NCBI GenBank assembly: GCA_025499705.1
Contig: JAFMVE010000005.1
Span: 1-64,000 of the forward strand
Source of the DNA: Carboxylicivirga caseinilyticus
Lineage (GTDB): Bacteria > Bacteroidota > Bacteroidia > Bacteroidales > Marinilabiliaceae
Length of the DNA: 64,000 bases
Direction: 5' to 3'
How positions within the stretch are numbered: the first letter of the stretch is position 1; every line of letters begins with the position of its first letter. The notes under the pieces were generated by a model. That model had not been told where the DNA came from and ran no database searches. It saw only the letters and a list, made by a program, of their open reading frames with translations. Made by a program: the position numbers and the translations under genes. Below are positions 38,397 through 57,679 of this stretch, in pieces.

Positions 38397-39488
38397 TTAC
38401 TTACTTTTTTCTATCAATTCGATAAAATCATCGAATAAAAACTCAGTATCAGTTGGTCCGCTTGATGCTTCCGGATGGAACTGAGTTGAGAAGAATGGTT
38501 TGCTTTTATGACGTATTCCCTCATTGGTTTTATCATTCACATTAACAAACAACGGTTCCCAATCGCTTGACAAACTATCATTATCAATAGCAAAACCATG
38601 GTTCTGGCTTGTTATATAACAAGTATCGGTTCCTACTTTAATAACCGGGTGGTTATGTGCTCTATGGCCATACTTTAACTTATAAGTATTGGCACCTGAA
38701 GCTATACCCAACAACTGATTTCCTAAACAGATGCCAAAAATAGGTTTTCCTATTTCCATGGCTTTTTGAATATGCTTCACTGTATCAGGACACATCTGAG
38801 GATCTCCGGGGCCATTAGAAAGCATTACACCATCATAATCCTCCTGAGTAAAGTCGTAATCCCAAGGCACTACTGTAACAGTTGTATCGCGCTTTAACAG
38901 GCAACGAAGAATATTATATTTTGCACCAGTATCGACCAAAACAACTTTGTTTTTACCATTACCAAATACTTTCTTCTCATTAACACTAACCTTAGCAACC
39001 AGATTCTCTTTATTAGGATCATTGAAATCAATGCTTTCTCCATCAATCTCAATCTTACCTAACATTGAACCCTTTTCGCGAAGAATCTTTGTAAGTGCGC
39101 GTGTATCAACATCAAAAATACCAGGAACTTCATTCTGAATTAACCACTCACGAAGACTGTTTTCAGCATTCCAGTGGCTGTATTCAAAAGAGTAGTCAGA
39201 AATAATTAATCCGGAGATATGAATTCGATCCGACTCATAAAACTTTGGTATACCATTTTCCTTCTCATCTTTTGGAACTCCATAGTTACCAATCAAAGGA
39301 TAGGTTGCTACCAGTATTTGCCCTTCATAAGAGGGATCAGTTAAACTTTCAGGATACCCGGTCATTGCGGTGTTAAATACCACCTCACCGGCAACCGATT
39401 TATGATATCCAAATGATTTTCCCTCGAAGACTGTTCCGTCTTCCAACACTAATTTAATCTTTTGTAATTCTGGCATACCCATTGACAA
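38397..39488 (-). CDS. carA: Carbamoyl phosphate synthase small (glutaminase) subunit
   Basis: This subunit supplies ammonia from glutamine to CarB for arginine and pyrimidine synthesis. The 363-residue protein has the N-terminal LVLEDGTVFEGKSFGYHKSV domain and a class I amidotransferase with LSNGPGDPQMC, the nucleophile region FGICLGNQLLG and FHPEASSGPTDTEFLFDDF. It lies downstream of gltA on the same strand but beyond a terminator, while carB is 15 kb away on the other strand. So the two subunits are separately expressed. Confidence 0.95.
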   Translation of the reverse strand: MSMGMPELQKIKLVLEDGTVFEGKSFGYHKSVAGEVVFNTAMTGYPESLTDPSYEGQILVATYPLIGNYGVPKDEKENGIPKFYESDRIHISGLIISDYSFEYSHWNAENSLREWLIQNEVPGIFDVDTRALTKILREKGSMLGKIEIDGESIDFNDPNKENLVAKVSVNEKKVFGNGKNKVVLVDTGAKYNILRCLLKRDTTVTVVPWDYDFTQEDYDGVMLSNGPGDPQMCPDTVKHIQKAMEIGKPIFGICLGNQLLGIASGANTYKLKYGHRAHNHPVIKVGTDTCYITSQNHGFAIDNDSLSSDWEPLFVNVNDKTNEGIRHKSKPFFSTQFHPEASSGPTDTEFLFDDFIELIEKSK

Positions 39489-39670
39489 ATAAGTCGTTTG
39501 CTTTCAATAATACAGAAAAAATGCATTTACCTCTCTTTGATAAATGCATGCATATTGTTTCGTTTTTTATGCGGTACAAATGTAATAATTATTTGTTGGT
39601 TTGGCCAATATAAAATTCTCAAATGTATAAATATTACAATATTTTCGATTTGGTGCATATATATACAAAA

Positions 39671-53592: not shown

Positions 53593-54075
53593 TTATATTG
53601 TTTTTTCTTTTAACCCTGGCATAAACAATGATAAAGCATTGATTACGTCCGTTTTACTTACTCCTTCACGACTAATGAGTAAAATTGTATCATCACCCGC
53701 GATAGTTCCTAATATCTCATATGGTCCGTGACTGTCAATAACAGATGCTATTCCGTTAGCAAATCCCGGACGTGTTTTAATAATTGCCATTTGACCTGAA
53801 AATTCCATCGATTCCACACCGCTTACCGGAAAATCTTCATTCGAAGGTAAGGAAGCTTCAACCTTTTGTCCAATATCAGGTATTACATATTTATATCCTG
53901 TTTCAACATCTGGCACTTTAGCTACCTTAAGGTATTTCAAATCACGCGATAGGGTGGCCTGAGTCAGTTTAAAACCTTCCTCTTCAAGCAAACTAACCAG
54001 CTCTTCCTGCGAACTAACTTTTCGCGAACTGACCAGATGCTTAATAGCCAATAATCGTTGCGCTTTAATTTTCAT
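53593..54075 (-). CDS. argR: Arginine repressor
   Basis: A hexameric arginine-sensing regulator of 160 residues. The N-terminal winged helix shows SQEELVSLLEEEGFKLTQ and ATLSRDLKYLKV. The C-terminal oligomerisation and arginine-binding domain shows GIASVIDSHGPYEILGT and IAGDDTILLI with the paired aspartates that bind arginine. It heads the minus-strand arginine cluster. An ARG-box-like sequence overlaps its own promoter. Confidence 0.95.
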   Translation of the reverse strand: MKIKAQRLLAIKHLVSSRKVSSQEELVSLLEEEGFKLTQATLSRDLKYLKVAKVPDVETGYKYVIPDIGQKVEASLPSNEDFPVSGVESMEFSGQMAIIKTRPGFANGIASVIDSHGPYEILGTIAGDDTILLISREGVSKTDVINALSLFMPGLKEKTI

Positions 54076-54107
54076 TCTTCTATTAATGTATATTTATTCG
54101 GTGTCGA

Positions 54108-54121
54108 TGCAAATTTATTCA
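54108..54121 (-). promoter_or_regulatory. ARG-box-like operator on the argR promoter
   Basis: The minus strand reads TGAATAAATTTGCA, matching 12 of 14 positions of the enteric ARG box core TGAATwwwwATTCA. It covers the argR -7 box completely, as expected for autoregulation. Confidence 0.5.
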
Positions 54122-54161: not shown

Positions 54162-54169
54162 TATTTTTG
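54162..54169 (+). promoter_or_regulatory. -7 box upstream of the carB leader
   Basis: TATTTTTG matches TAnnTTTG. Transcription would begin near 54173, giving a leader of about 285 bases before carB. No good -33 element is seen. Confidence 0.5.
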
Positions 54170-54208
54170 CATGACAATTTTATTTGAAAACAATAAACAG
54201 GTGGTCAA

Positions 54209-54394
54209 GTGACTATAACACTACTGAATACAAGCACTCTATCGATATTTTCTTACACATCATATCTATTCATTTTATTTTTTTTATTCATTATCAATCA
54301 AAAATTAACCTCAAATTTTAAGCTTGAGGCTTTTTTTTGCATAAAAAATGAATTTTTTCCAACAAAAAGTAAAAACAGATATACACAACTGTAA
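54209..54394 (+). CDS. Possible leader peptide of carB
   Basis: A 61-codon frame starts with GTG five bases after AGGTG, a Shine-Dalgarno-like sequence unusual for this phylum. It encodes a Phe/Leu/Ile-rich middle (YLFILFFLFII) through a U-rich tract, runs across the terminator hairpin at 54309-54338, and ends 63 bases before carB. The layout resembles the E. coli pyrBI leader, where translation coupled to UTP-dependent pausing controls termination. The peptide itself need not function. It contains a single Arg codon near its end, so an arginine-ribosome-stalling model is unlikely. No alternative gene product is suggested by the sequence. Confidence 0.35.
   Translation: MTITLLNTSTLSIFSYTSYLFILFFLFIINQKLTSNFKLEAFFCIKNEFFPTKSKNRYTQL
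54309..54338 (+). terminator. Intrinsic terminator inside the carB leader (attenuator candidate)
   Basis: CCTCAA, loop ATTTTAAGC and TTGAGG form a 6-base-pair stem, followed by C and eight T. It lies 120 bases before the carB start and downstream of the predicted promoter, so it should control read-through into carB. Confidence 0.7.
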
Positions 54395-54457
54395 GAAGAG
54401 AGGGAGTAATAAAAATTGAATTATAAGTAGCTAGCAAACAATAAACTGCATTGTAAA

Positions 54458-57400
54458 ATGAAGAAGAACGTCAAGAAGGTCGTTGTACTGGGCTCAGGAG
54501 CGCTAAAAATCGGAGAAGCAGGTGAATTTGATTATTCAGGATCTCAAGCTTTAAAAGCCCTGAAAGAAGAAGGTATTGAAACGGTATTGATCAACCCCAA
54601 CATTGCAACCGTACAAACTTCAGAAGGTATCGCTGATAAAATTTACTATCTGCCTGTTACACCGTACTTCGTTGAAGAAGTGATGAAGAAAGAAAAGCCT
54701 GAAGGTATTCTTTTGGCTTTTGGAGGACAAACTGCTTTAAATTGCGGTACTAAATTGTATGAAGCAGGTACACTTGCCAAATACAATGTGGAAGTTTTAG
54801 GAACACCTGTTCAATCGATTATCGACACAGAAGACCGTGAGATCTTCGCCAATAAATTGAAAGAAATCGATGTTAAGACCCCAATAAGTATTGCGGTTAC
54901 CAATATTGAAGATGCAGTGAAGGCATCCGATGTTATCGGATTCCCTATTATTGTGAGAGCTGCCTATACCTTAGGAGGTATGGGTTCCGGTTTTTGTTCG
55001 AACAAAGAAGAACTGATTGCCCGTGCTGAGAATGCTTTCTCTTATTCAAACCAGATTTTGGTAGAGGAATCATTAAAAGGCTGGAAAGAGGTTGAGTACG
55101 AAGTAGTGCGCGATGCATACAACAACTGTATTACGGTTTGTAACATGGAAAACTTTGACCCGCTGGGAATTCATACTGGTGAAAGTATCGTTGTTGCTCC
55201 ATCACAAACCTTATCCAATGCTGAATATCACAAACTTCGTGAGTTAGCAATTAAGATCATTCGTCACATTGGAATTGTTGGAGAATGTAACGTACAGTAT
55301 GCGTTGGATCCTTATTCAGAAGACTATCGTGTTATTGAGGTGAATGCCCGTCTTTCTCGCTCAAGTGCTTTAGCCTCTAAAGCAACTGGTTATCCATTAG
55401 CCTTTATAGCTGCTAAGTTAGGTTTGGGATATAGCCTTCACGAATTGAAGAACTCAGTAACCAAAACAACTACAGCATTCTTCGAACCTGCACTTGACTA
55501 CATTGTTTGTAAAATACCTCGTTGGGATTTAGGTAAATTTACAGGTGTATCGAAACAGATTGGTTCGAGCATGAAGAGTGTGGGTGAGATCATGGCCATC
55601 GGTCGAAACTTTGAAGAAGCTATTCAAAAAGGTCTTCGAATGGTTGGTCAGGGCATGCACGGATTTGTGGCCAATCAACCACTTAAAAACAAAGATATTA
55701 AAGAAGAGTTAGCTGAGCCAACCGATCAAAGGGTATTTGCTATCTCTGAAGCGCTTCAGGAAGGTATGTCTGTCGATGAGATTCATAACCTGACCCGCAT
55801 CGACAAATGGTTTCTTGAGAAACTTAAGAATATCACAGACCACAAAGAACTTCTTGAAAAATACAATACACTGGAAGATCTTCCAACAGAAGAACTTTTA
55901 AATGCCAAGAAAATGGGATTCTCTGATTTCCAGGTTTCTCGTTTGGTTCTAAAAACCGATGGTATAGAAATGGAAAAAGGTCTGCTTTCCGTTCGTGAAT
56001 ATCGTAAGGCAAATGGCATTTTACCTGTTGTGAAACAAATTGATACAATGGCAGGTGAGTTTCCTGCTCAAATCAATTACTTATATCTGACCTATAGTGG
56101 AACTGAACATGATATTGATTACGAAAGGGATGGAAAATCCGTAATCGTTCTTGGTTCAGGAGCCTATCGTATTGGATCATCAGTTGAGTTCGACTGGTGT
56201 AGCGTTAACTCTCTTAACACAATTAACGCTCAGGGTTACCGATCGATCATGATCAACTACAACCCTGAAACAGTGAGTACCGACTACGATATGTGTAGCC
56301 GACTATACTTTGATGAATTGACTCAGGAAAGAGTGATGGACATCATTGACCTTGAAATACCCAAAGGAGTGATTGTATCGGTTGGTGGACAGATTCCGAA
56401 TAACCTGGCAATGAAATTACATCGTCAGAATGTGCCAATTTTAGGAACCTCTCCAACTGACATTGACCGCGCTGAAAACCGGCAGAAATTCTCAAGCCTG
56501 TTGGATGACCTAGGTGTTGACCAGCCACGTTGGAGTGAATTGACTTCCATCGACGATATTTTCAAATTTGTTGATGAAGTAGGCTTCCCTGTTTTGGTTC
56601 GTCCTTCTTATGTACTTTCAGGTGCTGCGATGAATGTGGTTTCGAACAAAGACGAATTGGAACACTTCCTAACACTGGCAGCCAATGTATCCAAAGAATT
56701 CCCGGTAGTTGTTTCAGAATTTATTGAAGAAGCCAAGGAGATTGAAATCGACGCTGTAGCTAACAACGGTGAGGTAATTGCATATGCAATCAGTGAACAC
56801 ATCGAATTTGCCGGTGTACACTCTGGTGATGCAACTATTGTATTCCCTCCTCAGAAGCTATATGTTGAGACCATTCGTAGAATCAAGAAGATAGCCCGCG
56901 AGATTGCTAAAGGCTTGAATATTACAGGTCCATTCAACATGCAGTTGCTGGCAAAAGACAACGATATTAAAGTAATTGAGTGTAACTTACGTGCTTCACG
57001 AAGCTTCCCGTTTGTTTCTAAAGTATTAAAGGTGAATCTTATCGATATGGCAACCAGAGCTATGCTTGGTCTACCTGTTGAAAAGCTTACCAAAAGTTCT
57101 TTCGAACTGGATTACGTGGGTATCAAAGCTCCTCAGTTCTCTTTTGCACGTTTACAAAAAGCCGACCCTGTATTAGGTGTTGATATGTCATCAACCGGTG
57201 AGGTAGGTTGTATTGGTGAAAATTATTATGATGCTGTTCTGCAATCAATGCTATCAGTAGGATATCGTGTACCTGAAAAGAATGTGTTGATTTCTTCCGG
57301 TCCTGCGCGTTCAAAACTGGAATTATTGAAGAGTGCAGCATTATTAAAAGAACGTGGTTATAATCTTTTTGCAACAGGCGGAACTCATAAGTTCTTTGCT

Positions 57401-57679
57401 GAGAATGGAATTGAAACAACATTGGTATACTGGCCAAACCAGGATCAGAAACCAAACGTAATCGATCTCATTCGCGAAAAGAAGATTGATTTGGTAATTA
57501 ATATTCCTAAAAACTTATCTAAAGATGAGTTGAAAAATGGATACCAAATACGTCGTGATGCTATCGACTTTAACATTCCATTGATTACTAATGCACGATT
57601 AGCAAGTGCTTTCATCTATTCGTTCTGTAAATTAGGACAAGAGCACATTAGCATTAAGCATTGGGATGAATATAAATAG
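54458..57679 (+). CDS. carB: Carbamoyl phosphate synthase large subunit
   Basis: This enzyme of 1073 residues makes carbamoyl phosphate for arginine and pyrimidines. It has two homologous ATP-grasp halves: VVVLGSGALKIGEAGEFDYS in the first and VIVLGSGAYRIGSSVEFDW in the second, with VIEVNARLSRSSALASKATG and VIECNLRASRSFPFVSKVL. An oligomerisation segment lies between them, and a C-terminal MGS-like allosteric domain (LLKERGYNLFATGGTHKF) ends it. It diverges from argR, with a long leader containing a terminator. It is followed by its own terminator. Confidence 0.97.
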   Translation: MKKNVKKVVVLGSGALKIGEAGEFDYSGSQALKALKEEGIETVLINPNIATVQTSEGIADKIYYLPVTPYFVEEVMKKEKPEGILLAFGGQTALNCGTKLYEAGTLAKYNVEVLGTPVQSIIDTEDREIFANKLKEIDVKTPISIAVTNIEDAVKASDVIGFPIIVRAAYTLGGMGSGFCSNKEELIARAENAFSYSNQILVEESLKGWKEVEYEVVRDAYNNCITVCNMENFDPLGIHTGESIVVAPSQTLSNAEYHKLRELAIKIIRHIGIVGECNVQYALDPYSEDYRVIEVNARLSRSSALASKATGYPLAFIAAKLGLGYSLHELKNSVTKTTTAFFEPALDYIVCKIPRWDLGKFTGVSKQIGSSMKSVGEIMAIGRNFEEAIQKGLRMVGQGMHGFVANQPLKNKDIKEELAEPTDQRVFAISEALQEGMSVDEIHNLTRIDKWFLEKLKNITDHKELLEKYNTLEDLPTEELLNAKKMGFSDFQVSRLVLKTDGIEMEKGLLSVREYRKANGILPVVKQIDTMAGEFPAQINYLYLTYSGTEHDIDYERDGKSVIVLGSGAYRIGSSVEFDWCSVNSLNTINAQGYRSIMINYNPETVSTDYDMCSRLYFDELTQERVMDIIDLEIPKGVIVSVGGQIPNNLAMKLHRQNVPILGTSPTDIDRAENRQKFSSLLDDLGVDQPRWSELTSIDDIFKFVDEVGFPVLVRPSYVLSGAAMNVVSNKDELEHFLTLAANVSKEFPVVVSEFIEEAKEIEIDAVANNGEVIAYAISEHIEFAGVHSGDATIVFPPQKLYVETIRRIKKIAREIAKGLNITGPFNMQLLAKDNDIKVIECNLRASRSFPFVSKVLKVNLIDMATRAMLGLPVEKLTKSSFELDYVGIKAPQFSFARLQKADPVLGVDMSSTGEVGCIGENYYDAVLQSMLSVGYRVPEKNVLISSGPARSKLELLKSAALLKERGYNLFATGGTHKFFAENGIETTLVYWPNQDQKPNVIDLIREKKIDLVINIPKNLSKDELKNGYQIRRDAIDFNIPLITNARLASAFIYSFCKLGQEHISIKHWDEYK

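Follow-up and report, generated by a model that had tools for sequence, protein, structure and literature searches.

The 64,000-nucleotide stretch of Carboxylicivirga caseinilyticus DNA analysed here (the window) raises the question of whether the long leader in front of carB operates as a translation-coupled attenuator of the kind found at pyrBI in Escherichia coli. By analogy with pyrBI, and with the sensing of UTP included in the analogy, we consider on balance that it probably does. Judged from the sequences, the case for such an attenuator is strong for pyrB of the same genus and moderate for carB itself.

The carB locus and the parts of its leader

The carB and argR genes, both named through NCBIfam matches, are divergent and the leader region sits between them (Table 1). 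carB adjoins the arginine cluster, and a search of the genome returned no second full-length match to it; carA likewise has a single match in the genome and lies in the same window. The promoter box, the GTG-initiated frame, the 63 bases between the stop of this frame and the start of carB, and the hairpin followed by eight T residues (T8) were all claimed by the original prediction and were confirmed by direct reading, as was their arrangement in the order known from pyrBI. The letters of the promoter box, TATTTTTG, are identical across the DNA alignment, which comprises 16 of the 18 leaders described below (without L012 and L018). According to the excerpted text of PMC9723704, the flavobacterial promoter box occupies positions -12 to -5; with this position, carB transcription would start near 54174 and the leader would be ~284 nt long, in agreement with the predicted length of about 285 bases. 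From 54170 up to carB the window contains no exact TAnnTTTG. The terminator hairpin consists of CCTCAA, a 9-nt loop and TTGAGG. The most U-rich 24-mer starts at GTG+56 and is 75% U, and the one Arg codon of the leader frame, at position 57, lies 3' of the terminator.

Table 1. Genes and leader parts of the carB region in the window.
Feature	Position	Strand	Basis or remark
carA	38397..39482	-	single match in genome
argR, arginine repressor	53593..54075	-	TIGR01529, E 1.3e-36, 125.8 bits, slightly below cut-off 130.45
ARG box 1, TGTATATTTATTCG	54087..54100		inferred ArgR site near argR start; 11.0 bits, seventh best in window
ARG box 2, TGCAAATTTATTCA	54108..54121		predicted; 16.6 bits, second best in 64-kb window
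-7 box of carB promoter, TATTTTTG	54162..54169	+	direct reading
Leader frame, GTG start, 61 codons, crosses terminator	54209..54394	+	direct reading and comparison
U-rich tract, candidate RNA polymerase pause region	54265..54288	+	most U-rich 24-mer of leader, inside frame
Intrinsic terminator candidate	54309..54338	+	6-bp hairpin 54309-54329, C, T8 54331-54338
carB, carbamoyl-phosphate synthase large subunit	54458..57679	+	TIGR01369, 1533.9 bits; presumed target of control

Taken alone, the window leader is within chance; it is the comparison across relatives that lifts it above chance. Promoter-like sites in 4 kb numbered 11 (11.5 expected) and terminator-like sites 3 (3.1 expected), in a motif scan whose loop limit of 8 missed the carB hairpin on the plus strand and listed only its minus-strand reading. 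Folding was likewise unremarkable against shuffles, with a z of -0.83 for the hairpin region and -1.00 for the whole carB leader. Around carB, Rfam 15 returned two matches, to a streptococcal sRNA and a snoRNA, both far below gathering scores and outside the leader; a scan of seven loci of carB, pyrB and carA gave no match to any family, riboswitches and the PyrR element included, at E values of 1 or less.

Terminator, U-rich tract and open frame in related carB leaders

Seventy carB loci were compared. From these, 18 leaders were chosen by eye from their GTGA start and the argR-carB distance, and the remaining 52 loci were scanned for TAnnTTTG, frames and terminators only; 23 of the 52 have a TAnnTTTG no more than 60 nt from carB. 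The long leader with the GTGA start is present in all 14 genus genomes (G000-G013) and in G022, G024, G032 and G039. In 17 of the 18 leaders the GTG frame runs for 49-94 codons without a stop. The exception is L017, where the frame ends after 44 codons and the next shared element follows at 128 rather than 129 nt, a frameshift. The start codon is GTG in all 18 and never ATG (GTGAC in 17, GTGAT in L018); a weaker start codon has been kept.

The chief result counting against an attenuator at carB is that the terminator is not conserved. Four of the 18 leaders have the hairpin with T8, namely those of the window (L001), L004, L005 and L006, and T8 is at GTG+122 in each. The stem of L004 is identical to that of the window, L005 has one G-U change and L006 one two-sided pair change. 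The respective free energies are -4.9, -4.9, -3.8 and -4.8 kcal/mol for the window, L004, L005 and L006, and all four fail the cut-off of -5.5 kcal/mol used in the terminator filter. The other 14 genomes keep the leader without this terminator, including L016, the sister of the four carriers in the tree. In L020, T8 occurs at GTG+158, and no hairpin there passes the filter. A hairpin near carB, AACTTGCT..AGCAAGTT, might replace the terminator in L008, L009, L011, L012 and L015; its poor tail, TTTTATT, and its absence by eye from L007, L013, L014 and L017 make this doubtful. The hairpin and T8 of the predicted intrinsic terminator are thus present in the window and recur in three relatives, but the terminator is weak and confined to the nearest relatives.

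Arginine control appears to act elsewhere. An ARG matrix was built from the 30 of 70 carB loci that match a strict tandem pattern, and its best site in the window (18.0 bits) lies at 39654, before carA. The rank of the site at 54108 is partly by construction because its letters match the training boxes, which leaves the carA site as the sole independent support; four further sites at 11.3-12.8 bits lie elsewhere in the window and are unaccounted for by the matrix. Both ARG boxes in the argR-carB gap are upstream of the carB promoter, which suggests, as far as sequence can, that arginine controls carB separately through ArgR at these predicted boxes. On the minus strand of ARG box 2, TAAATTTG is likely, by eye, to be the -7 box of argR.

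It could also be that the leader serves mainly as a host for ArgR, with the bound repressor blocking elongation or looping to the upstream boxes and with the terminator incidental. Extra ARG-box-like sites of 9.8-12.0 bits are indeed found inside 11 of the 18 leaders (L008-L015, L017, L018 and L022). However, no site of at least 6 bits occurs in the leaders of L001, L004, L005, L006, L007, L016 or L020, and the open frame is left unexplained, so that we regard this role as unlikely. The distribution hints that terminator and leader ARG box replace each other, in that the four terminator carriers lack the box; L007, L016 and L020 have neither. The conserved element TGCATAAAAATGAA was also tried as an ARG box and rejected: it scores merely 7.3 bits and also reads in frame as CIK. 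An element fitting TGYRTWAAA, mostly TGYATAAAAATGA (54338-54352 in the window), is shared by 15 of the 18 leaders at GTG+126 to +129; 14 of these 15 have it in frame, and L017 retains it despite the broken frame.

The U-rich tract predicted to precede the terminator proved to be a consistent feature. The U profile was taken over 17 of the 18 leaders (without L012). In 15 of the 17, all but L013 and L018, the most U-rich 24-mer is located at GTG+54 to +68. Within the tract the U content at codon positions 1, 2 and 3 is 0.44, 0.56 and 0.42, as compared with 0.32, 0.37 and 0.36 before it. As U is raised at all three positions, the tract is not merely a by-product of hydrophobic codons. A different reason for its maintenance would be pairing with the downstream A-rich TGCATAAAAATGA in a regulatory RNA fold, rather than polymerase pausing. 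Such pairing beats shuffles in L008, L014 and L015 (z -2.0 to -2.3), and a two-sided swap of A-U for U-A distinguishes L008 from L015. Over all 18 leaders, however, the pairing is weak (mean z -0.6; window -0.98), with z of -0.3 to +2.3 in L004, L006, L007, L010, L016, L018 and L022, and we consider this explanation quite unlikely.

Outside the GTG frame, reading offset by one meets a stop at the GTG itself in all 18 leaders and reading offset by two meets one within 5-110 nt. Among one-difference codon pairs in five colinear leaders, those involving a stop number 0 of 216 in the real frame; for the two other frames the counts are 23 of 195 and 29 of 183, with the proviso that the pairs are not independent. 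In the same five leaders synonymous changes make up no larger a share of the differences in the real frame than elsewhere. Neutral evolution was simulated for 12 of the 18 leaders on their own tree, omitting L011, L012, L017, L018, L020 and L022, in which the element spacing is not 129 or the element is missing. On average 1.4-1.9 of the 12 frames stayed open and at most 9, compared with the 12 of 12 observed, a value reached in 0 of 1500 runs. This set omits the sole broken frame; the 138 nt that were simulated also supplied the tree, and each run began from present-day leaders whose frame is open. The peptide, on the other hand, drifts. Its dN/dS is 0.42-1.49 (8 pairs), compared with 0.009-0.025 for carB codons 2-300 (5 pairs), and V1 and T2 are the sole invariant residues in an alignment of 15 of the 18 peptides (without L012, L017 and L018). 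These comparisons indicate that the carB leader frame is under selection to stay open while the peptide itself is weakly constrained, a combination that fits the profile expected of a leader peptide.

A frame kept open could also mean that its product is a functional small membrane protein, co-produced with carB, and a hydrophobic run does recur near codons 20-30 of the leader peptides. The dN/dS values, the restriction of invariance to two residues and the variation in length from 49 to 94 codons argue against such a protein, which we consider very unlikely. As to initiation, the Shine-Dalgarno-like AGGTG reported earlier is present in the window and in L004 but is not conserved among the leaders, since L005 has AGGTA, L016 has AGGTC and the other leaders compared lack it.

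Arginine attenuation, in which ribosome stalling at Arg codons would set the terminator, might be expected from the position of carB beside the arginine cluster and from late Arg codons in several leaders, such as those ending in DKRC, but the hairpin and T8 fall at codons 34-43 and are preceded by 0, 0, 1 and 0 Arg codons in L001, L004, L005 and L006, and in L007 the DNA that encodes DKRC elsewhere is still there but out of frame, so that the classic mechanism is most improbable, as the original prediction had anticipated. An arrest peptide, CIIIDKRC, was also considered and discarded as its DNA remains in L007 out of frame.

In sum, the carB comparison upheld the frame (17 of 18) and the U-rich tract (15 of 17) among relatives and found the terminator in the nearest relatives only. 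The pyrBI-like reading put forward at the outset is favoured by the order of parts, the selected open frame, the position of the tract and the parallel at pyrB described below; the weak carB terminator, present in 4 of 18 leaders, stands against it.

Leaders of pyrB, carA and other pyrimidine genes

The pyrB gene of the same genus appears from its sequence to carry the same kind of leader in a clearer form. All 14 members have an ATG frame of 83-93 codons with an internal terminator and T8, and the terminators range from -13.0 to -15.9 kcal/mol. The promoter box TATCTTTG is present in the 8 genus leaders inspected, and the stem GACCTGA..TCAGGTC is exact in 12 of the 14, the other two carrying a G-U pair. 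The frame ends from 23 nt before to 11 nt after the start of pyrB in these 14 members.

A pyrB match was obtained in 91 genomes, and the loci of 90 of these (all but G093) were analysed. A locus was testable when it had a promoter box, a strong terminator and an ATG, which left 46 of the 90; 21 were without a strong terminator, 21 had a terminator without a box upstream and 2 had no ATG near the chosen box. One of the last two, G005, shows a crossing frame in the genus-level analysis. In 33 of the 46 testable loci the leader frame extends across the terminator, compared with 3.2 expected from dinucleotide shuffles; the 33 belong to 15 genera in two families and are therefore not independent. 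In 9 of the 13 other loci the frame terminates within the hairpin or no more than 9 nt ahead of it, and in 4 it ends earlier. In the 33 crossing loci the most U-rich 24-mer lies at a variable distance, 26-85 nt before the hairpin, and is 46-75% U in 32 and 29% U in L241. When E. coli pyrL was run through the same script as a yardstick, the terminator was detected and the frame crosses it; its most U-rich 24-mer was near the start codon and not the known tract, and the shuffle expectation was high at 0.43. Across the phylum, 76 of 148 genomes gave a pyrB match, and besides the window's own the matches listed are proteins of 33-45% identity.

The ATG of the pyrB leader follows the first T of TAnnTTTG by exactly 17 nt in 37 of the 46 testable loci (L158-L276). 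If the box occupies -12 to -5, this spacing would give a 5' UTR of ~5 nt and thus a near-leaderless mRNA.

The carA leader (39515-39584 of the window, minus strand) consists of a TACATTTG box, then the hairpin ATGCATTTATC..GGTAAATGCAT (39521-39549), then six T. The hairpin was found by script in 12 of 14 genus loci (L114-L127), with stems that partly differ by G-U type changes, and by eye in L123 and L126, where the script had placed the gene start inside the hairpin. No conserved frame across it was seen in the genus carA loci. Upstream of the other pyr genes, a promoter box followed by a terminator was not found in the loci examined for pyrE (9 of 14), pyrD (7 of 16) and pyrF (7 of 14). Five hairpin calls were made there (six hairpins; L279, L293, L312, L317 and L309, the strongest at -12.1 in L309), and none has TAnnTTTG within 420 nt upstream. 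In 8 of the 9 pyrE loci examined, such as L287, TAnnTTTG begins 12 nt before the ATG, a spacing which suggests that the pyrE transcript may be leaderless.

Proposed mechanism and its relation to known systems

By analogy with pyrBI, transcription of carB would begin near 54174 and a ribosome would start at the GTG at 54209, for which the frame kept open is the one line of support. When UTP is scarce, RNA polymerase would slow in the U-rich tract and the ribosome would catch up and cover 54309-54329, allowing carB to be transcribed. When UTP is plentiful, polymerase would outrun the ribosome, the hairpin would form and transcripts would end at T8. ArgR would act separately at its two predicted boxes in the argR-carB gap, upstream of the carB promoter.

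The arrangement resembles that of E. coli pyrBI and PyrL in its promoter, leader frame, U-rich tract, T8 terminator inside the frame and frame end before the structural gene. The U-rich tract lies near codon 20 in both leaders, as read for pyrL in the E. coli sequence; the pathway is shared, and A-F-F-C is the translation of T8 in E. coli as well as in the window. The differences are that the gene is carB and not pyrB, that the start codon is GTG, that the carB hairpin is far weaker (-4.9 vs. -15.3 kcal/mol in E. coli), that the frame ends 63 nt before the gene rather than 3, and that the promoter box is of the Bacteroidota type with predicted ArgR boxes adjoining.

In E. coli, carAB is controlled by pyrimidines and arginine at two promoters. 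Here, too, the likely logic is a carbamoyl-phosphate synthase that responds to both end products. Unlike E. coli carAB, however, one carB promoter box was found, and the pyrimidine arm would be attenuation rather than promoter choice. The leader also resembles amino-acid leader-peptide attenuators in that a short frame precedes a biosynthetic gene, but it has no run of control codons and its terminator is inside the frame, while in the excerpt of PMC4824070 the terminators of amino-acid attenuators lie >20 bp after the leader gene. That excerpt also mentions the pyrBI mechanism. Short frames reminiscent of leader peptides occur in long 5' UTRs of B. thetaiotaomicron, according to the portion of PMC7366714 consulted, and the corresponding portion of PMC9723704 gives clues for leader-peptide attenuation ahead of operons for amino acids in Flavobacterium psychrophilum. 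The available parts of PMC4833913 and PMC8305728 do not treat pyr genes of Bacteroidota. No title or opening of an abstract describes such attenuation in Bacteroidota, whether as pyrBI-type or pyrimidine control, at carB or pyrB, or through coupling, within a search that subscription literature lies mostly outside.

More tentatively, pyrB, carB in one lineage and perhaps carA may form a regulon in Carboxylicivirga and related Marinilabiliaceae that reads UTP by attenuation through polymerase-ribosome coupling, apart from ArgR, with sister species having a carB leader without a terminator and often with an ARG box; we hold this possible, short of probable. Such a regulon would be evidence of working transcription-translation coupling in Bacteroidota.

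If the carB leader does act as a pyrBI-like attenuator, the regulatory logic of enteric bacteria would also be at work in Bacteroidota, which requires ribosomes close behind RNA polymerase. Coupling in this phylum would then become testable by uracil limitation. The related species would provide a natural comparison series, the carB switch being present in some, missing in others and perhaps replaced in others still.
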